This document shows, in pieces, positions 221 to 54,064 of a DNA stretch of 57,013 nucleotides. The DNA lies in IMG/VR virus record IMGVR_UViG_3300033148_007689, positions 1 to 57,013 of that record; one strand, given 5' to 3'. The position numbers and the translations under genes were made by a program. Numbering within the stretch: the stretch's first letter is position 1; each line of letters begins with the position of its first letter. Below the pieces are notes generated by a model. It had not been told where the DNA came from. It worked only from the letters and a program-made list of their open reading frames with translations, and did not search any database. Origin of the DNA: a virus.

Positions 221-1076
221 ATGTCGACAATAAGCGATCAATAGGGTCGCCTTATCTTGAAAGAGATATTGAAAAACGGGGTGAATTGCTGGGATCTCCC
301 CCACAAGGGGACAATCAGCAGCCAAGCTTGGAAAGTAATTTCCTTGAAGGTTCAGAGACTAACGTCCGACTCCTACCGCATAGCGGGGAGAGTAATGACG
401 ACACGAGTGCCCTGCATCCTATAAATAGGATGATGATATAGTCCAAGCTTATAGGTAACTATAAGAAACAAAGTTTAAATGACTTTGTGATAATAAACTG
501 TCAAATTATACTATAGGCGGAATCGACCTATATTTCTCTGCTACTGTAGCTGATACTGATTTAGATAAAGGGACTACTACTGGTGCAGGAAGCGACTTCA
601 GAACTACTACAAAGAATTTGGGTAATATTGTTACAGCAGAACTTGCTCCTGATGTAACATTCCTAGAGCATTTTATTACTACAGCTGATGGAGATAGAAG
701 GAAAGATCATATAATTGCCTCTACAAAGAATTTAACTATACCATTCACGTTTGATGAAATGAATGAGGCTAATTTAAGACGGTTTTTCTTAGGACACAAT
801 ACCACTGCTTCTGTAGCCAACTCATTTACAGTTTTAGAAAATGCAAAACAAATTGGTAGTGCACAGGTATATTTTCATACAGATATAGGCAGGGATTTTG
901 TGTATATGATTCCTAAAGTTATGCTTCGTCCAGACGGAAATCTTGCAATGAATATTGAAGATTTTTGGAGTGGTCCTATGGCTCTTGATGTTCTATATTA
1001 TGACTGGACTCCAACTAACGAAGCAAGTCCTATATTAAGTGCTCACTATGGAGTGATGATGACAGCAGCATTCTAA
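221..1076 (+). CDS. Major tail tube protein, split by a group I intron
   Basis: Exon 1 is 221-238 (MSTISD) and exon 2 is 501-1076 (SNYTIGGIDLYF...), giving a 197-residue protein after splicing. The start ATG at 221 follows AAGGAAGGTG at 203-212. Both exons end on codon boundaries, so the join keeps frame. The function rests on position: it lies directly before the frameshifted chaperone pair and the tape measure, where siphophages keep the tail tube gene. Residues around DVTFLEHF and a C-terminal beta-rich part fit that fold, but no signature motif is decisive. Without splicing, translation stops at 242-244 after seven residues. Confidence 0.75.
239..500 (+). ncRNA. Group I intron, complete, ORF-less (intron 2)
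   Basis: A 262-nt intron. The 5' splice site is predicted after the U of exon GCGAU, which pairs with GUCGC at 245-249 (P1 with a terminal U.G pair). The core contains acaatcagcagccaag (311-326), P7 strands agacta and tatagtcc, a P8 hairpin catcct/aggatg and a P9 hairpin caaagt/actttg. The terminal G is base 500. Size and core resemble small group IA introns of phages. It has no room for a homing endonuclease. The 3' half is nearly identical to intron 1. Confidence 0.85.
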
Positions 1077-6996: not shown

Positions 6997-7698
6997 ATGG
7001 CATATGATGTAACAGCCACATTCCAGGCGGAACAAGTAAAGCTTGAAAATACCTTCGTAATTAATATGTACGTCATTAATGCTAGTCAGAGTGGTCATGA
7101 TTTTTTATATTATTGGAATGGCAACCAAGATATATATGGTTTCCAACTCAACTCTAATGGCAGTGTTACTGCAACAGAACAAGTATATATTGGACTCCCC
7201 ATTAGCCAAGATTCTCTAAAAACCAATATCTCTGGGGAGATCCCCCAACTGTCAATTTCTATACCTAATACTGATAGAACAGTTGAAGCTGTTATCCAAA
7301 ATAATGATTATCTGCGAGGTAGAGAAATACATGTTTTAACCTGCTTTGCTAAGCATCTTCCTTCTGGAGCTACAGCTAAGCATATAGGGAGTTCACCAGA
7401 TCACAATGCTGTTTTAAAAGAAAAGATGTACATTGACTCTACCACGAGCAATGAACAAGCTGTTACTTTTATATGTAAACCTAAATTTAATATAAAGAAT
7501 ATTATAGTTCCGGGTAGAAAATTTAGTAGAGAATGTGCGTGGAATTATTTGGGAACGGAATGTGATCCTGACGGTAATATTAATGCTGAAGCATTCCCCA
7601 CATGTGATGGTACACTGAAACAATGCAGGGAAAGAGGAAATACCTACAGATTTGGGGGGTGGCCTTCTATCCCCCAAAAAGCAATTATAGTCGCATGA
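6997..7698 (+). CDS. Lambda gpL-like tail tip protein with a likely Fe-S cluster
   Basis: 233 residues. The C-terminal third holds four cysteines in the gpL spacing: CAWNYLGTEC, then FPTCDGTLKQC, followed by a conserved GG-W/F-P turn (FGGWPSIP). In lambda gpL these cysteines bind an iron-sulfur cluster at the baseplate. The N-terminal part is beta-rich. It precedes the NlpC/P60 and J-like genes, the same order as lambda L-K-I-J. The cluster is an inference from the cysteines. Confidence 0.8.
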   Translation: MAYDVTATFQAEQVKLENTFVINMYVINASQSGHDFLYYWNGNQDIYGFQLNSNGSVTATEQVYIGLPISQDSLKTNISGEIPQLSISIPNTDRTVEAVIQNNDYLRGREIHVLTCFAKHLPSGATAKHIGSSPDHNAVLKEKMYIDSTTSNEQAVTFICKPKFNIKNIIVPGRKFSRECAWNYLGTECDPDGNINAEAFPTCDGTLKQCRERGNTYRFGGWPSIPQKAIIVA

Positions 7699-7720
7699 TA
7701 ATTAAAAAAGGTATAGAATT

Positions 7721-7762
7721 GTGAAATGGACAAAAGAAGAAGCTAATGCGGGGGGAACATAA
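7721..7762 (+). CDS. Possible 13-codon leader peptide
   Basis: GTG 7721 to TAA encodes VKWTKEEANAGGT and its stop overlaps the next ATG as TAATG. A weak AAGG lies 10 nt upstream. It could couple translation into the NlpC/P60 gene, or be chance. Confidence 0.3.
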   Translation: MKWTKEEANAGGT

Positions 7763-24555: not shown

Positions 24556-25653
24556 CTAGGCTGAGGCCAGAGCTCTCGTCTCCACAGGCTTAGCTTTGGG
24601 CAAACCCTGCCCTAGTATGTTAATTGCGGCATTCAAATCTCTATCGAGAGTTAAACCACAATCACATTTATAAACTCTCTGATGTAAAGGCATGTCCTGT
24701 ATCTTCCCACACTTAGAACACATTTTTGAACTAGGGAAGAATCTATCAATGACCCTTACTTCCTCACATTTACTGGCTAAGAATTGTTTTATTTTGTAAA
24801 AGTTAGCTCTTGAAACAGCTTTACTTAAATGTCTGTTTTTCTGCATTCCCTTTACATTCAAATCCTCAAGTACAACAGTATGATAGTTGTTAGCTATGTA
24901 GTGTGTCATTTTATGTATGTAGTCATCTATCACACATTTAATCTTATAGTGAAGTTTAGCTATCCTCAATCTTGCTTTGGCTCTGTTCTTACTACCCTTC
25001 TTCTTACGGGATAAACTCTTTTGAGCACGTCTGAGCTGTTTATCATATTTGTAGTATGTTTTCGGATTCTCGAAAACAGTCCCGTCAGAGAGTGTGGCTA
25101 GTGTCTTTATCCCCAAATCAATCCCGACAGCGCCTGAAACTTGGTTCTCGCTTTCAGTCTTGTCAGTTTCAACTGATATAGAAACAAACCACTTACCTGC
25201 TCTCTGCTTAATTGTAGCTGACATTAACTTGCCTGTAAACCTCAGCTCCTCAGTCATTCGTACCCATCCGAGTCTCGGTATTCTTATCTTCTTACCATCA
25301 ACAACAAATTTGCTGTTATCCACTGTAAAAGATTCGTGAATACCTTTTTTATGAAACTTGGGATACTTACTTCTCTTTCTAAAGAAGTTTATAAATGCCC
25401 TGTTGAGGTTTTCAAAAGCTGCATCAACCACACATTTTGTCACTTCCATAACAAAAGGAAACTCGGCTCTTTTAATAGTTGTAAACTCCTTCTTAAGCTC
25501 CCTGCTGTTTGGTTTATTTCCCTTCTCATATTCTTCTTTCCATCTAGCAAGCCCCCAGTTATAGACAAACCGTTGAACGCCACAGGCTTTCTGTAAATAT
25601 GTAGCCCGTTTATTGTTTGGCCTTAGCTGCATAACATGTGAGCGTATTTTCAT
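24556..25653 (-). CDS. tnpB: TnpB, RNA-guided transposon nuclease (intact)
   Basis: 365 residues, full length for the family. An N-terminal OrfB helix-turn-helix part (VQRFVYNWGLARW), a beta-barrel region, then RuvC residues D179 (GIDLG), E263 (VVLEDLNVKGM) and D337/D339 (LDRDLNAAIN), plus a zinc finger C312, C315, C330, C332. All look intact. Its ATG overlaps the previous stop (TAATG), so it is translated in the phage operon. No tnpA is nearby. TnpB cuts DNA next to a TAM with an omega RNA and helps keep the element at its site. Confidence 0.9.
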   Translation of the reverse strand: MKIRSHVMQLRPNNKRATYLQKACGVQRFVYNWGLARWKEEYEKGNKPNSRELKKEFTTIKRAEFPFVMEVTKCVVDAAFENLNRAFINFFRKRSKYPKFHKKGIHESFTVDNSKFVVDGKKIRIPRLGWVRMTEELRFTGKLMSATIKQRAGKWFVSISVETDKTESENQVSGAVGIDLGIKTLATLSDGTVFENPKTYYKYDKQLRRAQKSLSRKKKGSKNRAKARLRIAKLHYKIKCVIDDYIHKMTHYIANNYHTVVLEDLNVKGMQKNRHLSKAVSRANFYKIKQFLASKCEEVRVIDRFFPSSKMCSKCGKIQDMPLHQRVYKCDCGLTLDRDLNAAINILGQGLPKAKPVETRALASA

Positions 25654-25963: not shown

Positions 25964-26156
25964 CTTCTGTCACCTCAATTTTTAGATCTCCTTTACCAAA
26001 CTTATTGTATATCTTCACTCTTCTTCTTTTGAAACCTTTTACTCCAATCAACATGCTAATTAGTCTTTCACCACCCACAGGATCCCCGCTAGTATGCGCA
26101 CCATACCAAGTTTTCAACCACTTCTCTTTCTTAGATGCTGGTATTGTTATAATCAT
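25947..26156 (-). CDS. Hypothetical protein downstream of the reductase
   Basis: 69 residues; ATG 26156 overlaps the reductase stop (TAATG), so the two are coupled. Basic and beta-rich (FKRRRVKIYNKFGKGDLKIEV). No family recognised. Coupling suggests dosage linked to the reductase, not proof of a shared task. Confidence 0.55.
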   Translation of the reverse strand: MIITIPASKKEKWLKTWYGAHTSGDPVGGERLISMLIGVKGFKRRRVKIYNKFGKGDLKIEVTEDDGLY

Positions 26157-29100
26157 TATATGTCACATACCCCTGATCTGCAAGACACATCTTTTTCAGA
26201 TAAAGAATCAGAGACTCCTTTTTCATCCTTAATGTATTTCTCTATCTCTTTTCTAGACATCCTATAATATACTTGCTTCTCTCTGCTCTCATCTCTATAG
26301 ACTGTTACCCCTTTAAGATCGTAAATGTACTCTAATAATATTTTACTTAAATCTTCTGCTGTTGAAGATTTAGGCAACAAGATAGTCTTTGATACACTCC
26401 CATCCAAATATTTAGCTATAGTGGATTGCATTTCTAAATGTTCTTCTGGTTTTAAATCATAACTATCTACAAACCATTCACTATCATAATGTTCTTTACA
26501 CAGTGGGTGTATATAAATTCTATCACTAACACGATCTGATCTTAAGTACCCTTTAAAGGGTAAGGGCTCTATACCACCAACAACATCAGCCAATAATGAA
26601 GTTGTATTATGAGTGATAAAACCATTAGCTATATAAGTATGTGAATCTTCATATATTTCGAGATCATTTACATGCATATTATCATACACATTCGTTTCTG
26701 ATACTACATCAAAACATAAATCATTTTTAACAAACCAATTCATACTATCTATCCTCGAAATATAATTTGCTTTAGTAGTACAGATTACATTATTATTAGA
26801 TGAAAACCTATCCTTTGTATATGAAAGATGCTGACTATTAAAATGCATTAATTCATCTGGAGTTAGTATGATCAATTCCCTATCTCCATTTTTTGGTAAA
26901 GACACGTCAATATTATACAATAATTTCAACAATTTTACCGAGTTATATCTGTTTACAGAAATTCTATAGGCTTTACCTCTGGCAAACACTTCTCTACCTT
27001 CAATAATAGAATTGTTTTCCTTTGTTTCTTTTAAATGAGATACAAATCCAAGACCCAACAATATAGTTTGTATTTGATTGGCCATTGTTTCTGAAATAGT
27101 AGTAAATCCTATACGGTTATCTTCCTTTCTTATATGACCATTGCCTCTGTGGTAACCGCTTATAAAAGAAATTATATTGTTTAATGAACCGCTTAATATT
27201 ATATCAGGAATAAAAGCATTTATAGCTCCATATTTTATACATCCATGTTTTTGAAACCAATCATATAATTGTTTATTGCCAATCTCTAATCTCACAGATT
27301 TACTATCTAATCTATCACGTTTATATACTTTGATTTTAAACACATCCCCAAAAGACTTATATATCAAATTTGATATATATTCTGCTTCATTATTATTAGA
27401 AGTCTCAAAATATAATCTATGACTTCTTCCATTTACAGTCCACCAACCATCTGCCATATAATATCCTAATAATTCAGCTTTATGATCAGATAACCATGTT
27501 TGTCTCTTGTCGTACAGAAACCCTTTCTTCAACACAACTAAATCTCCTTTTTCTATATCACCCAAAGATTTCCAACTATACCCGTTCCCATCAGTTAATA
27601 CCCTCACTTTATGATCAAACGTTCCTTGAAGCTTATAACCATGTTTAGTTTTTATACTTTTAGTTTTAGCGATCCCCTGATCATAATATGCTTTTATATG
27701 TACATCCTTAAAATCTGATTTAGTAGAATTTCTTCCTCTACCAACTCTTAAATTAATCTTTTTATAATCTTCAATTCTTTTAGTACCAATCTCTGATGAT
27801 ATAAGAGTACCATCTACCAAACAACCCGTCGGAGCTGCTGTAGTCAACGTTACGTTACGAATTGAGTTTTCTTTTATGAGCATCCTTATTTTAGCAGGTA
27901 ATTTTCTAACAAAAGAGGCACTAGCATAATCTATTCTATTATATTTTGGGAATGCCCCTTTTTCTTTTGCTAGTTCCACAGAGGCTATGTAAGCTTCATC
28001 TCTGATAAATCTATATAATTTTTCTACTTCCGCAATGGCTCGTTCTGAACCATATCTTATCTCTTTCATAAAAAGATAGTCTGCAAGACCCATTGTACCG
28101 AGCCCGATCCTGCGAGCATTTTTAACAACTATTTCTTGTTGTGGGATTGGGTAGTAAGCTAGATCAATTACGTTGTCCATAAATCTTACAGCTATTTTAA
28201 TAGTCCTAGATAGTTTTTTCCAGTCAGTGTTTTTATTTATAATAAAATGTGGTAACACAAGAGCGCCCAGATTACAACATCCAAACTCTTCGAGCGGCAG
28301 TTCACCGCACTGTAAGTTGTTGATATAATTGAACTTTTTCTTTCCGTTCTCTGTCTTGCTCTCACTAACCATAACATAAAAATTATGAAATTCGTCCACT
28401 GTCCCATTGTATACATCTTCATATCCATCTTCTTCTATAGATACTATATTATAATTCATCATTCGATGCTTATATCCTTTTTCCATTGCGTACTTAACTT
28501 GACCAAGAAAAGCAGCCTTAGAAGTACCTGCACATCTAGTAGAACAATATGACTGTTCTCTCCTATGCCACTTGACAGAGAAAATTCTTCCACAATTCTC
28601 ACATTGCTTATTTACCCAAATACTACCGTTCTCAAAAAAAACATCAAGATCAGTTGTATCTTTAAGAACAAGAAACTTCCTATATGCTTTTAACTCGTAC
28701 CCTTTCATATATACTCCCGCTTCTTTAGCGGCAGCTTTAAGCATTGAACTAGCACTTTTATATTTTCCAAAAGCACAATTAGACCAAGGTATACTATTTG
28801 TTTTGCAGTACTTCTGCCACTCATCCTTGGTTACTTTCCTTCCTATATTTCTCATTAAATCAATGGCTATTTGGAATATTTCTTCTGGTGTAAGTCCCGT
28901 CCACCTACCGTTATTTTTACCCGACCAATTTTGTTTAATAAGCCAGTTTTTCTCAGGAAACCTATTCACTGGGTTATTCCTACCAAGCATATCTTGTGCA
29001 TGTAATTTATCATGATCTTTTTTTAACATAGGTTCAAGATTTACCCATTCATTATTAAGACCATTAAAATCATTATGATGCACTATTTCACCAGGTTTCA

Positions 29101-30304
29101 ACTTACGACCCAAATTAAACTCTGCAATAATTCTGTGTTCTGCTTTATTTGTAGATTTACCAACATTCCACCACACATAATCTTGTGATCTACTATTCGC
29201 CCTAAGAAATACATCTTTAAATGATGCATGAAATTTAACTGCGTGATGAAGCCTATCATTTTCTTTTAATTCGTCAGCCCGCTTATAAGTACCATCAAGC
29301 ATAAGGATCCCATGATTTTCAGTACATCTAATTATAGACCCATCATTAAGGGTTATCTTCAAAATTCTTTCTTTATACCCAGTGATTCTAGGGTTTCTCA
29401 TTAAACGTACAGTAACATTATTATTACTATCACTACAAAATACTGGCACATCTTTACCTTCATCAGCCAATTGTTTTATAGGAACATTGCCCCTACCGTC
29501 TGCTACAGCCACTAAAGTATTTCCCGTCACGCAAGGATTGACCCCCCGAATTGGACTGAAATAATATGAATTATTCTTTCTCAAATTGTCCCAATTTATC
29601 AAACCTGGCTCACTATGCTCCAACATATTATTAAGAATCATATCCCACAATTCTCTTGCTCTTACTGTTTCATATACTTTACCAGCAAATTTAAGATCCC
29701 ACTCATTGTCCTCTTCTACCGCTTTTAAAAAACCTGAATCTACAATTACTGAAATATTAAATTGTGTTAATTTATTGTGCTTTATTTTAGCATTAATAAA
29801 TTCTCTGATTTCAGGATGAGAGATATGGCACAAGGCAATCCCCGCACTTCTTCTCGCCCCACCAGTTTCTATTCTTTTCCCAGCATGATTAAATATTTCC
29901 ATAAAGGAAACTAGTCCTGAACTATTACCGCCTTTTGTAATAAGAGGAGCACCTTTAGGTCTCAAAGCAGAAAAATCTATCCCATTCCCACCACCATATG
30001 AAGAAATAATTAAATAATTCTTGAGTGTTTCTCCTATAGATTCAATACTATCTTCCAGAGGTAGAAAATTACAATTACTTGTAGATGGTCTCAGTTTACC
30101 AAGATTCCTTAGAATTCTTCCTGCAGGTATAAAATCCAAAGGTTCTATAATAGAGTAAAACTCCCCATAATACTTCTCTGCTTTGTCTCCTTCATTCTTA
30201 GCATTCTCTCTACATATTCTTTCTGCTAGGTGATCCCATTTAGTTTCATTGTCCCAGAAATATCTGCTCTCAGCTATCTTCTGGGCATTAGCGCTTAATT
30301 CCAT
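26156..30304 (-). CDS. nrdJ: Class II (B12-dependent) ribonucleotide reductase with two inteins
   Basis: 1382 residues from ATG 30304; an in-frame ATG at 30325 would translate the AAGGAGGAGGAGAAGG ribosome site as MRRRRRR and is rejected. Without inteins the enzyme is about 568 residues. NCNFLPLEDS, GGGNGIDFS and RRSAGIAL fit the NrdJ family; NP/CGE holds the thiyl-radical cysteine, and the C-terminus CRSGVC is the redox pair. It reduces ribonucleotides to deoxyribonucleotides using adenosylcobalamin and needs no oxygen or small subunit. Intein 1 is residues 258-665, intein 2 828-1233. It sits with a phosphoesterase and a nucleotidase gene. Confidence 0.88.
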   Translation of the reverse strand: MELSANAQKIAESRYFWDNETKWDHLAERICRENAKNEGDKAEKYYGEFYSIIEPLDFIPAGRILRNLGKLRPSTSNCNFLPLEDSIESIGETLKNYLIISSYGGGNGIDFSALRPKGAPLITKGGNSSGLVSFMEIFNHAGKRIETGGARRSAGIALCHISHPEIREFINAKIKHNKLTQFNISVIVDSGFLKAVEEDNEWDLKFAGKVYETVRARELWDMILNNMLEHSEPGLINWDNLRKNNSYYFSPIRGVNPCVTGNTLVAVADGRGNVPIKQLADEGKDVPVFCSDSNNNVTVRLMRNPRITGYKERILKITLNDGSIIRCTENHGILMLDGTYKRADELKENDRLHHAVKFHASFKDVFLRANSRSQDYVWWNVGKSTNKAEHRIIAEFNLGRKLKPGEIVHHNDFNGLNNEWVNLEPMLKKDHDKLHAQDMLGRNNPVNRFPEKNWLIKQNWSGKNNGRWTGLTPEEIFQIAIDLMRNIGRKVTKDEWQKYCKTNSIPWSNCAFGKYKSASSMLKAAAKEAGVYMKGYELKAYRKFLVLKDTTDLDVFFENGSIWVNKQCENCGRIFSVKWHRREQSYCSTRCAGTSKAAFLGQVKYAMEKGYKHRMMNYNIVSIEEDGYEDVYNGTVDEFHNFYVMVSESKTENGKKKFNYINNLQCGELPLEEFGCCNLGALVLPHFIINKNTDWKKLSRTIKIAVRFMDNVIDLAYYPIPQQEIVVKNARRIGLGTMGLADYLFMKEIRYGSERAIAEVEKLYRFIRDEAYIASVELAKEKGAFPKYNRIDYASASFVRKLPAKIRMLIKENSIRNVTLTTAAPTGCLVDGTLISSEIGTKRIEDYKKINLRVGRGRNSTKSDFKDVHIKAYYDQGIAKTKSIKTKHGYKLQGTFDHKVRVLTDGNGYSWKSLGDIEKGDLVVLKKGFLYDKRQTWLSDHKAELLGYYMADGWWTVNGRSHRLYFETSNNNEAEYISNLIYKSFGDVFKIKVYKRDRLDSKSVRLEIGNKQLYDWFQKHGCIKYGAINAFIPDIILSGSLNNIISFISGYHRGNGHIRKEDNRIGFTTISETMANQIQTILLGLGFVSHLKETKENNSIIEGREVFARGKAYRISVNRYNSVKLLKLLYNIDVSLPKNGDRELIILTPDELMHFNSQHLSYTKDRFSSNNNVICTTKANYISRIDSMNWFVKNDLCFDVVSETNVYDNMHVNDLEIYEDSHTYIANGFITHNTTSLLADVVGGIEPLPFKGYLRSDRVSDRIYIHPLCKEHYDSEWFVDSYDLKPEEHLEMQSTIAKYLDGSVSKTILLPKSSTAEDLSKILLEYIYDLKGVTVYRDESREKQVYYRMSRKEIEKYIKDEKGVSDSLSEKDVSCRSGVCDI
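26606..27823 (-). mobile_element. Intein 2 (406 residues) with LAGLIDADG endonuclease
   Basis: Begins CLVDGTLISSEIG and ends GFITHN before extein Thr, with block B at GTFDHKVRV. It splits the reductase motif APTG/TTSLL. The first LAGLIDADG motif is ELLGYYMADGWW; the second, FISGYHRGNGHI, has Asn where the acidic residue is expected. Splicing residues (Cys1, His-Asn, Thr+1) look complete. Confidence 0.85.
28310..29533 (-). mobile_element. Intein 1 (408 residues) with HNH endonuclease
   Basis: Begins CVTGNTLVAV (block A), has CTENHGILM (block B) and VYNGTVDEFHNFYVMVS (block F), and ends YINNLQ before the extein Cys. The insert lies between NP and CGE, directly before the catalytic thiyl cysteine. 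An HNH motif (GEIVHHNDFNGLNNEWVN... LHAQ) lies near its middle. The last residue is Gln, not Asn, an atypical but known intein ending. Confidence 0.85.
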
Positions 30305-30325
30305 CCTTCTCCTCCTCCTTCTCAT

Positions 30326-37690: not shown

Positions 37691-37972
37691 CTATAAGCTG
37701 TGGGCTTCTAAGGGTAAGGACTGACGTCCTTTTCCTAAGCTCTGCATTCCCAGAACTAAAATATTTTTGGCAGCATTAACATCACGATTTAAATGGAGAT
37801 TACAAATAGGGCAATGGTATACCCTTTCAGACAATTCAAGTTTATGCCTATTTCCACATTGAGAACATATCTGGCTGGTATAGGCAGGGTTGACCTTAAC
37901 CGTCCGACCCCCGGCCCATGCTGCCTTGAAGTCGAGAAGGTTAAGAAATTGTCTCCATGCTGCATCTCCAAT
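37691..37972 (-). pseudogene. tnpB: tnpB remnant (C-terminal ~93 codons)
   Basis: Reads IGDAAWRQFLNLLDFKAAW, then VNPAYTSQICSQCGNR and HLNRDVNAAKN, i.e. the RuvC-III and zinc-finger end of TnpB with a normal stop at 37691. The N-terminal two thirds, with the RuvC-I and -II residues, are missing; the frame joins directly to the end of the 48-residue gene. It is a degraded transposon tail followed by its right end. Confidence 0.8.
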
Positions 37973-38198: not shown

Positions 38199-38389
38199 AT
38201 ACGTTTAGCTTCCTCCTCTGCAAAATGACGACGTTTCTCTTCAGCATCTCTCAAGGAAAGGAAAGCTGATAGACATGCCTGACTCCATGTAATCCGCTTT
38301 CGCTTTGGGGTTTCAATTTCTGAAATACAAAGAGGTCTCTTGCTATTCTGCTTAATTATTTTTTTAATTAGCCATTCCTTAAAGTTCAT
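38195..38389 (-). CDS. Hypothetical protein (64 residues)
   Basis: Basic, opens MNFKEWLIKKIIKQNSKRPL with a C-terminal charged helix (LRDAEEKRRHFAEEEAK). It overlaps the stop of the TerD-like gene. Function unknown. Confidence 0.5.
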   Translation of the reverse strand: MNFKEWLIKKIIKQNSKRPLCISEIETPKRKRITWSQACLSAFLSLRDAEEKRRHFAEEEAKRI

Positions 38390-40272
38390 ATCAATAACCT
38401 TATTATTGTATCCTTTTCTAATTTCTGTGGTGAAAGGTCTATGTCACAGTTCTCAACATCCTCTACCATTGTTGCACCAGCTTTTTCTAAAATATCATTC
38501 AAACTAATTGTGTTAGTGTAAAAATCAAACAGATATTTTCTACTACGGTCAACAAACTCAGAGCCGGTTGATGTTATTGACTTACCTAAATAAGTTTCTG
38601 CAAAGTAAAATTTAGACTCGTTCTCTGTTGTTGCTATTAATCCTAGTACCTTTTGTTTTTGGTTGATAGTTGAATTAGCAATAGCTTTTACGTTATTTGG
38701 GTCAACCATATAATTCTTCTTAAACCTATTCGCTTGCTCTTTTGCTACTAATATTTTGAAGGGCACTTCTATACTAGCATCAAAGTTATAATAATTGACA
38801 AACATTATTAATGATGCCTCATTCTGTCGTTTAACATAAAATAATTCTGTAGCCCTATTTTTACCACTAGCATCTGTCATGTCTCCAGAGAATAGTATAG
38901 TTCCTGCCCCATCCCTATAATTACCATCCCAACCAAACTTAGTACCTGCATTTATTATGGATAGATCAAGGTCTATCCTCTTATGGTTTATATTGTTCCA
39001 ATGGATGCCAAAAATCATATCATTGGGAACAGATACATAAGAACCAGATGGGAAGTTGCCAGTGAACATCTTTTCGGTTGCTGGAAGAGTATAATGTATA
39101 TAGTCAGGGATATAAATTCTCTTACCAGTTACCTTCTCACTAATATCTTCAATGATAGACTCAAGAACAATATTCAATGCTTCTTTGGCCTTTTCTCGCT
39201 CAAAAAAAGAAAAATCTGTAGCATAGCTTTTTCCATTGCGAATACGGAAAAGAATTGAATCATGCTCTTTTGTTCTGAATTTCAATGCATAAGCCAATCT
39301 TATTTTCCTGAAAATATTTACCCGATCTAACTCCTGTCTTAATATGTCTATATCTATTTCATTACCGTGTTTTATCAGAGAAGTTATGTCATTAAGATAA
39401 TCTGGTTTCATCGGTTTATGATATTTAACAGACAGCTTCCTCAATTTATTTATAATCTTGTTCAACTGTGGGTTTGTCTTGAAGGCAAGAAATAATGGTT
39501 TGAACCGCAGGAAAATTTCAGCCAGTTTTTTCAATCCATATTCTCTATCATAATCCTTAAAAAGCTTAATGATTTTGAGATTTTTGTTACCTTTTATTTC
39601 CTTTATCAGTTCAGCAGACTTTATCAGTAAGGTCTGTTCTGTTGATTGATATACAATATATCTAAGAAATTCAATAGGGTTCTGAGGAACTATATTTAGG
39701 TAGCTATATAAAGCAATCCTAACCTCTTTGTTCTCGATATTCTCTATTTCCTCTACATCTAGCTCCAACCAAAGAGCTATATCAACTACATCATTTATTG
39801 TGTTTTGTTTTAAAGCAATACCTGAAGCTAAGAGGCTTATCAATTTCTCTTTAATCTCACTCTTGGTGTAACCCTTGATAACAACAAGACTAATATTGTC
39901 AATATCGGGTATATCTAATTCCTCTCTAGGAATATAAACAGAGTCTGGGCTATAAACTCCAAAAAGCTCAAAACCATACGTAGTGATATAATGAATCACC
40001 TGCTCTAAAAATAACTGCTCAATATCTGCCTCTTTTATCTTCTTCCAAGATTTGTGGAAAGAGTTATTCATCTGTTCAGGAGTAAGACCAATTTCCTGTT
40101 CAATTATCTCAGTTAACTCAACCAATTCTTTTGTGGAATAATTAGCAACCACATCAGGAGAGAAGATGAAACCTTTCTGTATTGTTTTCTTAAGTAAAGT
40201 TTCACTTACCTTTTCTTTTCTTTTATCTCTTATTGGTAGAGCTTTAAACAGTCGTAGTGTTGAGTAAGTCAT
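38386..40272 (-). CDS. Large protein with a TerD-like domain
   Basis: 628 residues. A helical N-terminal two thirds, then (about 410-560) SGSYVSVPNDMIFGIHWNN, RIDLDLSIINAG, TILFSGDMTD and RATELFYVKR, matching the pattern of TerD-like domains in bacterial proteins of the MXAN_6230/SCO0854 type (W...DLDLS...SGD...A.E). Such domains bind calcium and appear in stress or phage-defence related operons. In a phage this suggests a membrane- or host-stress role, but none is shown. It is the second gene after the triple RNA-like array. Similarity is by eye. Confidence 0.5.
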   Translation of the reverse strand: MTYSTLRLFKALPIRDKRKEKVSETLLKKTIQKGFIFSPDVVANYSTKELVELTEIIEQEIGLTPEQMNNSFHKSWKKIKEADIEQLFLEQVIHYITTYGFELFGVYSPDSVYIPREELDIPDIDNISLVVIKGYTKSEIKEKLISLLASGIALKQNTINDVVDIALWLELDVEEIENIENKEVRIALYSYLNIVPQNPIEFLRYIVYQSTEQTLLIKSAELIKEIKGNKNLKIIKLFKDYDREYGLKKLAEIFLRFKPLFLAFKTNPQLNKIINKLRKLSVKYHKPMKPDYLNDITSLIKHGNEIDIDILRQELDRVNIFRKIRLAYALKFRTKEHDSILFRIRNGKSYATDFSFFEREKAKEALNIVLESIIEDISEKVTGKRIYIPDYIHYTLPATEKMFTGNFPSGSYVSVPNDMIFGIHWNNINHKRIDLDLSIINAGTKFGWDGNYRDGAGTILFSGDMTDASGKNRATELFYVKRQNEASLIMFVNYYNFDASIEVPFKILVAKEQANRFKKNYMVDPNNVKAIANSTINQKQKVLGLIATTENESKFYFAETYLGKSITSTGSEFVDRSRKYLFDFYTNTISLNDILEKAGATMVEDVENCDIDLSPQKLEKDTIIRLLI

Positions 40273-40304: not shown

Positions 40305-40481
40305 TTATTCAACGTCCGATAGAGCGTTCCAGAATTTAACTCTCATATCTCTTTCCTCTTCTGGCTCTTCATCTGGATTACCACGAAGAGGATTCTGTAC
40401 TACGCTCTTCAACCACCTCGCCTCTTTTTCAGTAAGCTCAAGAATAATCTTTTGTACTATTTCAGTTTGCCTTCTCATCAT
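40305..40481 (-). CDS. Small acidic protein (58 residues)
   Basis: ATG 40481 (a second ATG at 40478) after GGAGGATAAG. MRRQTEIVQKIILELTEKEA then an acidic middle (NPDEEPEEERD). First gene downstream of the triple structured array, so translation control by that array would act here first. No family recognised. Confidence 0.55.
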   Translation of the reverse strand: MMRRQTEIVQKIILELTEKEARWLKSVVQNPLRGNPDEEPEEERDMRVKFWNALSDVE

Positions 40482-40503
40482 CTTATCCTCCTTTCAATTG
40501 GTA

Positions 40504-40682
40504 GGGCGAGGGGTAATAATCCCCAATGATTTTTTATAGGAACCCCATTTGCCTTAAATTAAGGAGCGAGCAATAGTTAATTTAGCAGTTAACTTGTTAG
40601 GAATTGCCTATGCTCCTTTTATTCAAAAGGCGGGCAGTAGTTGTATCCAAATTATACTTTATAGGAACTGCTCTCTGCCTTT
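40504..40682 (-). repeat. Triple array of a ~55-nt structured repeat (RNA-like)
   Basis: Three units, plus coordinates: 40504-40555, 40561-40618, 40625-40682. Each has an outer stem (unit 2 AAGGAGC/GCTCCTT; unit 3 AAAGGC/GCCTTT; unit 1 only 3 bp), an inner stem (GGGGT/ACCCC; GCAAT/ATTGC; GCAG/CTGC) and a third hairpin (AATC/GATT; GTTAA/TTAAC; GTAT/ATAC). A strand TAGGAA, minus TTCCTA, is invariant. Stem sequences change while pairing is kept. A promoter at 40691-40718 starts transcription at the array. Confidence 0.7.
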
Positions 40683-40690
40683 AAAACTAG

Positions 40691-40718
40691 AACATAATCA
40701 TTAATTCTCATTTGTCAA
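40691..40718 (-). promoter_or_regulatory. Promoter facing the array
   Basis: Minus strand: TTGACA (40713-40718), 16-base spacer, TATGTT (40691-40696). The -35 and spacer AAATGAGAATTAATGA match the promoters at 51.9 and 52.3 kb. Predicted start near 40684, the 5' edge of the array. Confidence 0.75.
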
Positions 40719-40732
40719 GTGGTAAAATCAAT

Positions 40733-41716
40733 TTATTTTGCCAACTCCTCCCCCACTTTAAGAAGTCTACTATAATCCAATTTCGGTTTTGAGATCTTTA
40801 TATATTCTTTTAATTCATCCCCCTTCCTTAAATTTTTCTTCAGTCGGACTTCTCGTTCCTTCACTTTTATTTCACCTACACTTACATTAAACTTTTTAAA
40901 AACAGGATCACTTAATAGCCTTGAGTCTACATCAATTCTATAAAAGTTCCGGCTATCCCCCATAATAGTCTTCTTAATCTTATCGTTCAGCCCACTGAAC
41001 GTAAAGAATCTTGGGCAAGCTGTAGGGACAGAAATAACCTCACCATCCTTATAATGAATGAATCTTTTTACATCATCTATCTCCCCAAAATCCTGAGCCA
41101 TCGGAGAACCAATATTCACTATATTCCCAAGGGTTTGAGGTTTATGGATATGACTATTAAACACGATATCCCAACTTCCAAATATCTGGCTCTTTAACTT
41201 TGCCCCACTTGTATAATCAGACGGACCAAGCTTAAGTCCAGCAATATCTTCATGTGTAAATAATATAGTTTTATTAAATCCTTTTGGGATAGATAGATTT
41301 CCTTCTACCATCCCATAGGGGATAATACGTATTAGAGTACTATCATATTTGAGATCCTCTGGTTCACAAACTACTCTCACATTGTCAGAAAAAGGCAACA
41401 ATGAAGATTTTCTTCTATCTAAGCTATAAAAATCATGATTGCCAGTATTCATTATAATATCAAAACTTTTGGAGTATTCTCTGTATAAACTCCAAACTAT
41501 ATTTAAAGTATCAAAGTCAATTCTGTTTTTTATCTCAAAGAGATCACCATTAAATATCACAAGATTTATATTATTATCCTTAGCATAACTAAAGATTTGA
41601 TGGGTCACTTGTATTTGCTCCCAGAGCCAGCTATTCATACCATCTGGTCTCGTATAGGACTTAGATGGATTAGTATAGTATTGAATATCCCCATATGTAA
41701 CAAAATTAAGGCTCAT
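40733..41716 (-). CDS. Mre11/SbcD-like nuclease (T4 gp47-like)
   Basis: 327 residues. Metal motifs GDIQ (residue Q where DxH has His), FNGDLFE, TGNHDFYS, FTHEDI and SHIHKP, the Mre11 order. The cap domain and basic C-terminus follow. It partners the Rad50-like ATPase at 34551-36335, though the genes are 4 kb apart with insertions between. It would process DNA ends for the RecA-like recombinase. The altered first motif is unusual for the family. Confidence 0.85.
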   Translation of the reverse strand: MSLNFVTYGDIQYYTNPSKSYTRPDGMNSWLWEQIQVTHQIFSYAKDNNINLVIFNGDLFEIKNRIDFDTLNIVWSLYREYSKSFDIIMNTGNHDFYSLDRRKSSLLPFSDNVRVVCEPEDLKYDSTLIRIIPYGMVEGNLSIPKGFNKTILFTHEDIAGLKLGPSDYTSGAKLKSQIFGSWDIVFNSHIHKPQTLGNIVNIGSPMAQDFGEIDDVKRFIHYKDGEVISVPTACPRFFTFSGLNDKIKKTIMGDSRNFYRIDVDSRLLSDPVFKKFNVSVGEIKVKEREVRLKKNLRKGDELKEYIKISKPKLDYSRLLKVGEELAK

Positions 41717-53028: not shown

Positions 53029-54064
53029 TCATGGAACCGGCTGTAAGGCATGAGGACTATAAACTCCCATGTGTGATAAATTAATAGCTGCGTTTAGATC
53101 CGCATCTATTTTATTACCACAAGCACATTCATAAACCTTCCCTTTACGGTTTGATTTACAAATGACTCCGCAATTACAGCATTTCTGGCTTGTATAAGCT
53201 GGGTTGACTTTTGTGAACAAGACACCGGCTTCCTCAGTCATTTGGAGGAGTTTCTGTAAGACCCTTACATAACTCCAACGCTGTAATTTGTTTGTGAATT
53301 TCTTTCGTATTTTCCCTTTACTTTTATGTTTTACATTTTTTAAGTTCTCAACAACCAGTTCACGAATATTAGATAAATCTATTTTATTTAAACTTTGATT
53401 TATAAGATTATTTCTTTCAACCAAAGCCCGTTTAAAGGCTTTACTCCCCTGTTTTTTCCTACTAATCTTTTCATAGATTTGTTCCATGCCATCATCATAA
53501 GATTTATTTTCTGATGTTTTGATAAGCTCTCTGTAACCACAGTCAAGCCCAACAACCCTTCCTTTTTGTTTCAATTCGGGCGTTTTTTTCTCAAAAAGAA
53601 CTTCAATAAACCATTTATTATATTTCTTTATCAAACGTATTGACTTGTTTTGTTTCCAGTCTTTGAATTTATTGAAGTGTTTATGTGTTTTTACTGGAAG
53701 CTTGATCTGAATTCGCTTGCCAATAGAAGACAAACGGATCCATAAATCAAAATATTTCCCATTTTTAAAATCTGTAAACCTTGAGTCAAGAGTAAAAGAG
53801 AATTTTTTAAAAATTGGCCTAGTTTTCTTTCTTCTCTTACGTTGTGATTTAACTATTTCAAGTGCTTGCTTGGCATTGCTGCATTCTTGCTGATAACCAA
53901 GTATCAACTTTGCAGTTAACAAACTTAGAAGAGAAGTCTTTCTGCTCCCAAATTAGATCAATAAAAAGATTAACAACTCTTTGCATTTCAAATGCAATGG
54001 AATCTAATTGGATTAATTTACCTTCATTTGCTTCATTTATAGATAAAATTGATCTTCTAATCAT
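53029..54064 (-). pseudogene. tnpB: tnpB-2 with a frameshift
   Basis: The N-terminal part from ATG 54064 (AGGAAG upstream) reads MIRRSILSINEANEGKLIQL... and the C-terminal 297 codons, in another frame, hold RuvC D (GLDCGYRELI), E (VVENLKNV) and D (DADLNAAINL) plus CCNCG...CACG. The frames cross between about 53900 and 53945. RuvC residues persist, so the inactivation is recent or a sequencing error. Different from tnpB-1 in sequence. Confidence 0.75.

Follow-up and report, generated by a model that had tools for sequence, protein, structure and literature searches.

An RNA family found beside the gene of one unnamed protein in phages and bacteria may take part in the joining of tRNA ends

The window analysed here, a 57,013-nucleotide stretch of viral DNA, carries an array of three short structured units that is a member of a large RNA family absent from Rfam. 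Copies of this family are found beside the gene of one unnamed protein, referred to here as the partner protein, and also within tRNA genes. On the evidence of sequence comparison, this RNA and protein pair may be a hitherto unrecognised tRNA-joining machine.

In the 57-kb viral record, the array consists of three tandem units of ~56 nt on the minus strand (40502-40682), located between an SbcD-like gene and a 58-aa ORF. A three-unit tandem structured array on this strand had been proposed in the initial annotation and was confirmed, with the units scoring 50.2-53.4 bits using a covariance model built from 50 copies, the three units themselves among them. Unit 1, the 5'-most (40626..40682, minus strand, 52.8 bits), is made up of P1 (AAAGGC/GCCTTT), P2 (GCAG/CTGC), a UUCCUAU...CUA core and a short apical hairpin. 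Unit 2 (40562..40617, minus strand, 50.2 bits; the outermost P1 pair falls just outside these coordinates) has P1 AAGGAGC/GCTCCTT, P2 GCAA/TTGC and an apical GTTAA/TTAAC hairpin, and unit 3 (40502..40556, minus strand, 53.4 bits) has P1 GGC/GCC and P2 GGGG/CCCC. The changes in both stems had been recognised correctly at the outset, with the exception of the length of P2, which is one to two pairs longer than first given. When folded singly and compared to shuffled sequences, units 1 and 2 were moderately more stable (z of -2.2 and -3.29, respectively) and unit 3 was not (z of -0.26), so that the three units of the window are weak proof when taken alone; the reality of the array is established by the finding of some hundreds of additional copies.

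A promoter-like sequence, TTGACA-16-TATGTT (40691..40718, minus strand), is placed exactly at the start of the array, with its predicted +1 at about 40684, approximately the first base of the array. The promoter suggested previously is present as a consensus match, although 1.7 matches of this type are expected by chance in the region, about as many as were seen. Downstream of the array are the 58-aa ORF (40305..40481, minus strand; phrog_7471, E 1.3e-14) and the 628-aa partner protein gene (38386..40272, minus strand), whose product has a helical N-terminal part and a TerD-fold domain (residues 405-576), and the proposal that the array forms the leader of this TerD-like gene is supported. The SbcD-like phosphoesterase gene upstream of the array (40733..41716, minus strand) marks the 5' boundary; a search with it gave no array-linked relatives, placing it outside the conserved unit. 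No match to the array was obtained by blastn against phage records.

Elsewhere in the window, a group I intron (228-465, plus strand, 90.6 bits) lies close to the edge of the record, and the gene for the ribonucleotide reductase large chain (26156-30325, minus strand) has two intein-like insertions, one with an HNH-like part and the other with a LAGLIDADG part. An IscB-like RRXRR protein, two TnpB/OrfB-like proteins and a TnpB fragment are also all encoded within this one 57-kb phage record (20147-21100, plus strand; 24556-25653, 53029-53922 and 37691-37834, minus strand).

From the outside inwards, the core of the RNA consists of P1 with an inner GGC/GCC, an internal loop with A-N-A on the 5' side and a single C opposite, a P2 of 5-6 bp, and UCCUAU facing UUA. 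Above the core is a variable apical part, here called the payload. The same RNA with quite different stems was found upstream of the partner gene in two other loci (L002 and L004), and DNA patterns of the core only were then used to retrieve further contigs; the matches of the first DNA pattern scan were mostly due to chance, and these later served as a negative control. Pairing was assessed in 80 sites whose 5' and 3' halves had been picked on sequence only, with a limit of 115 nt. In 73 of these the four P2 pairs are all formed (shuffled mean 16.9, maximum 26 in 2,000), with 21 different P2 sequences represented, and the next three P1 pairs form in 69/80 compared to 22.4 after shuffling. GCAG/CTGC is over-represented among the P2 sequences because the DNA scan behind some of the loci required it, while most other loci were not selected for pairing. 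In an alignment of 50 sequences, 93.4% of cells pair and all ten pairs have changed on both sides, with the pairing signal abolished by sliding the partner. An additional covarying pair at the foot of P2 was identified by RNAalifold (G-C in 24/50 sequences and A-U in 19/50), and an invariant U-A closes P2 on the inner side. This covariation is decisive for a structured RNA. A larger alignment had been named beforehand as the place where the proposal of a structured RNA could fail, and it bears that proposal out instead.

The covariance model derived from the 50 copies gave matches in phage, bacterial and archaeal-bin loci, and had no match when run on unrelated viral DNA totalling 618 kb. The array is a leader array as first described, but not one confined to phages, since it is also present in bacterial chromosomes and archaeal genome bins. 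Searches of Rfam at gathering and permissive thresholds yielded chance matches only for the array, in agreement with the earlier failure to assign it to a known class, and no covariance model of the riboswitch, ribozyme or sRNA families of Rfam matched above threshold. One viral contig that also has the array carries a type II hammerhead ribozyme (L144, 8074-8138, minus strand, 42.3 bits).

The linkage of this RNA to the partner protein is tight, as it is seen in both search directions, DNA-pattern-first and protein-first. The same protein gene adjoins the array in nearly all true DNA-pattern matches, and it was a search of viral contigs for relatives of the partner protein that first led to the RNA in L002 and L004. 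Among loci found by protein profile alone, covariance model matches were obtained for 55/58 viral loci and for 73/80 loci of bacterial and archaeal assemblies. In all three viral misses the gene is cut at the contig edge. For the seven genomic misses, three genes are cut and two loci (L236 and L238, the latter in Marinicella meishanensis with three tRNA genes that bear the insert) have tRNA-embedded copies instead; L265 and L290 possess the partner gene with no detectable element upstream, and here the RNA could have been lost or diverged. Some large viral records, which may be fragments, have element copies without the partner protein. The possibility raised initially that the array is a repeat from the end of a mobile element was rejected on the grounds that both P1 and P2 show covariation and that the array goes with a single gene.

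Hosts of the pair include Chryseobacterium chromosomes, Marinicella, Venteria, Selenomonadaceae bins, and bins labelled Lokiarchaeota and Borrarchaeum, the archaeal assignment being that of bin labels, which may be wrong, on contigs that could be viral. The partner protein was found in 50 of 78 sampled Chryseobacterium genomes (about two thirds). Both parts are also present in the Synechococcus phages S-CRM01 and S-CBWM1 and in phage Phass-1, where the partner gene is inside a tRNA cluster and is annotated as hypothetical only. In S-CBWM1, ARAGORN also reports a tmRNA (L135, 17046-17363), with the asterisk that denotes the permuted form.

Members of the partner protein family are 580-670 aa in size, with a helical N-terminus and a TerD-fold C-terminus. 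The AlphaFold2 model of the window protein has a mean pLDDT of 81.6, and a fold search with this model placed a TerD fold at about residues 405-588 (best Z 13.9). The top five fold matches of the C-terminal domain (Z 11.0-13.9) include four TerD or TerD-like proteins, the next unrelated match scoring 5.3, while by sequence no Pfam match to TerD was found in the partner protein. Nor was there a significant match to it in Pfam, NCBIfam or PADLOC, and PHROG gave stray matches only. Modelled alone, the N-terminal half (pLDDT 76.4) had no outstanding structural match. Deinococcus Ro60 (Rsr, 2nvo) aligned to it over 158 residues with Z 5.1 and rmsd 5.4, a score not above that of unrelated helical proteins, and the full model matched 2nvo with an E of 0.28, a weak fold match. 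No TROVE domain was detected by sequence in any of 21 members, hhalign against 10 TROVE proteins gave a probability of 0.6%, and PF05731 had no match in S-CRM01, S-CBWM1 or Phass-1. The partner protein is a family of its own, given that the family libraries and TROVE profiles were negative and the fold match to Ro60 is weak; on the basis of the models, a kinship to Ro60 is possible. Assignment as a HEPN nuclease, considered for an R-x6-H motif near residues 278-285, was dropped because the cyanophage members have lost the R, and no family match suggests a ToxN-like endoribonuclease.

A second setting of the core was revealed by the Rfam tRNA model, which flags tRNAs of 110-116 nt that are missed by ARAGORN. 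What makes them longer is a circularly permuted form of this core in the anticodon arm (order UUA-P2'-YC-GC-loop-GC-ANA-P2-UUCCUAU), an insert of roughly 40 nt occurring in many phages and bacteria, with Marinicella and Desulfobacterales among the sources of element-bearing tRNA genes. The converse is found as well: a normal unit has a permuted tRNA as its payload, 3' half first, and a short loop of a few bases connects the acceptor ends. Such payloads form a minority of copies (L128, L134, L206, L212, L216, L248 and L251) and include Arg(UCG) in L128, Asn(GUU) in L212 and L216, Thr(UGU) in L248 and Lys(UUU) in L251; most free copies have a short hairpin payload only. The two arrangements are one topology, with the core on the anticodon arm and differing only in where the RNA ends lie. 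At element loci, the group I and group II intron models of Rfam gave no match, the families matched being those of tRNA only. No bulge-helix-bulge (3-nt bulge, 4-bp helix, 3-nt bulge) was seen by inspection at the exon-intron borders; these lie in AU-rich arms outside P2, and the sole internal loop (ANA/C) is within the insert.

Among unusual members, one element-bearing tRNA would, once joined, have the anticodon UCA and read UGA (L117, 52-165). Non-decoding payloads also occur: one is a normal-order tRNA-like module with a GCAA-capped anticodon arm (L138, 4669-4786, minus strand), and two tRNA-like genes have an acceptor and T arm only, with the permuted core in place of the D and anticodon arms (L138, ~7670-7735, and L143, ~620-690, both minus strand).

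Insertions are of two classes, with the anticodon stem broken at 29/30 or the insert at 33/34. An arm was regarded as canonical if its stem had five pairs and its loop 7 nt, with U at position 33 and a purine at position 37. In the 29/30 class, joining restores such an arm in 10/12 genes, four permuted ones included, namely Ile(UAU), Gly(UCC) twice, Pro(UGG), Lys(CUU), Arg(UCG), Asn(GUU) twice, Thr(UGU) and Lys(UUU). When bases 30-40 were shuffled, the mean was 0.27 and the maximum 4 in 20,000 trials. No stem is restored by alternative joins that leave a loop of 5 or 6 nt, whereas four are restored with an 8-nt loop and two with a 9-nt loop. For both classes together, 24 of 29 embedded genes, a set that excludes Chryseobacterium and whose members are not all mutually independent, are canonical after joining (shuffled mean 10.2, maximum 16). 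U33 is absent after joining in L002, L139 and S-CRM01, and the tRNA-like copy of Chryseobacterium has a variable anticodon arm that is mostly not restorable. ARAGORN recognised 36/36 genes as joined and 0/36 as encoded; its calls were rejected as proof of joining and are uninformative on the joint, since shuffled anticodon arms were also accepted. At the level of sequence it is shown that joining at 29/30 or 33/34 would restore canonical arms far above chance, and without removal of the insert there is no easy explanation for such arms.

Genes for RNA repair are found close to some copies. The Chryseobacterium locus has the order RtcB, tRNA-like copy, three tandem units and partner gene, with RtcB directly upstream and genes for WYL and RlaP (an RNA-repair nucleotidyltransferase) nearby. 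RtcB lies near 30/80 genomic loci, mostly in one genus; besides Chryseobacterium, it occurs in L224, L231, L236 and the viral L159, and it is absent from the seven phage records examined, the window among them. Salmonella combines Rsr, RtcB and Y RNAs in a comparable operon, rsr-yrlBA-rtcBA (PMC7790460), and the Y RNA YrlA mimics a tRNA in circularly permuted form (PMC11472068, PMC8394870).

We consider it somewhat probable that the copies are a protein-bound RNA element marking tRNA joining points, with those in leaders acting as mimics. The partner protein would recognise the core; in the tRNA-linked copies the core would be cut out and the tRNA ends sealed, presumably by RtcB, whose gene lies close by in Chryseobacterium and a few other cases, and by the RtcB of the host in the case of phages. 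Hairpin copies in leaders, including the three of the window, might be substrate mimics that bind the protein and could either control its own gene (autoregulation) or hold the protein ready. Such a tRNA-joining system would be distinct from group I/II introns and, to the extent observed, from bulge-helix-bulge (BHB) introns as well. The wider proposal of a new tRNA splicing system of phages and bacteria, possibly also archaea, with protein-guided removal of ~40-nt inserts, joining of permuted halves, and free units as mimics or other spliced cargo, stands at about even chances. A mixture, in which some lineages splice and others keep mimics, fits all the data.

The strongest rival to the joining-point reading is a Y-RNA-like ribonucleoprotein without splicing, whose core would be the protein-binding basal stem and whose payload an effector module, often a tRNA mimic. 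The topology of YrlA is seen in the permuted tRNA payloads, whose acceptor end is closed (PMC8394870, PMC11472068), payloads unable to decode exist, the RtcB/RlaP neighbourhood of Chryseobacterium resembles rsr-yrlBA-rtcBA (PMC7790460), and Rsr 2nvo is among the weak fold matches. However, the ten restored arms at 29/30 are left unaccounted for if the tRNA module is purely a mimic, and the partner protein has no sequence-profile likeness to TROVE, with C. culicis possessing a separate true TROVE protein; we regard this alternative as possible but rather doubtful. It is improbable that the tandem units solely regulate the downstream gene in cis, whether the protein binds them to control its own synthesis or they act as a tandem riboswitch. 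The array is indeed mostly just upstream of the partner gene and on the same strand, and in the window it follows the promoter-like site, but copies lie downstream of the gene in S-CRM01, Phass-1, L195 and L211, those of L138 and L143 belong to tRNA clusters where the stretch examined lacks the partner gene, and permuted copies occur inside tRNA genes. A ligand riboswitch, one of the roles initially proposed, is unlikely for this last reason; the window units may be a decoy or a processed small RNA, as had also been suggested. A small self-cleaving or self-joining ribozyme with the protein merely as chaperone would account for the fixed set of conserved unpaired bases (ANA, C, UCCUAU and UUA), and small ribozymes are commonly circularly permuted while keeping the core intact; yet no known ribozyme family of Rfam matches, and a self-sufficient ribozyme needs no strict co-occurrence with one protein, making this very improbable.

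The RNA family and partner protein are covered by no Rfam family, protein family or paper found. No description of either was located in the literature searched, and a prior description could have escaped notice because preprints and most subscription journals were outside the search. The tRNA genes of bacteria and phages are generally thought to be interrupted solely by large self-splicing introns. If the joining-point reading is true, these would be the first tRNA genes of permuted type in bacteria and phages and would represent a new kind of tRNA maturation by a small RNA element and its own protein; it would also explain the tRNA genes missed by annotation programs and provide a natural role for bacterial RtcB. 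Even without splicing, the result is a widespread unnamed RNA-protein pair that is testable in cultivable bacteria.

When compared to known systems, the element resembles group I and II introns in that it interrupts tRNAs of bacteria and phages in the anticodon arm, and differs from them in its size of only about 40 nt and in matching neither model. The RNAs of type III toxin-antitoxin systems (ToxI) are, as here, tandem short structured units directly upstream of a protein gene, whereas the units of this family differ from one another by covarying changes and occur in fusion with tRNAs. With archaeal and eukaryotic BHB introns and the permuted tRNA genes of Cyanidioschyzon, green algae and Thermofilum it shares short inserts in the anticodon arm and joining at an RNA element that is conserved. 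Archaea and animals use RtcB as the ligase, and removal of the insert would, at sequence level, restore a canonical anticodon arm in most genes outside Chryseobacterium. In contrast to these systems, the borders have no bulge-helix-bulge, insertion is at 29/30 and 33/34, and the element occurs in phages and bacteria and is linked to a different protein; as of 2014, permuted tRNA genes were recorded from algae and one archaeon only (PMC3978253). Bacterial Ro60 with YrlA, in which a permuted tRNA-like domain tethers an enzyme (PMC8394870, PMC11472068), is similar in having a noncoding RNA beside the gene of its protein, a basal stem with a variable module, a circularly permuted tRNA-like module with closed acceptor, and an RtcB neighbourhood in some hosts. 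The partner protein differs from Ro60 in having no detectable TROVE sequence and a C-terminus that is TerD-like and not vWA-like, and the RNA differs from YrlA in its core, in its several tandem units and in the insertion of the core also into apparently real tRNA genes.
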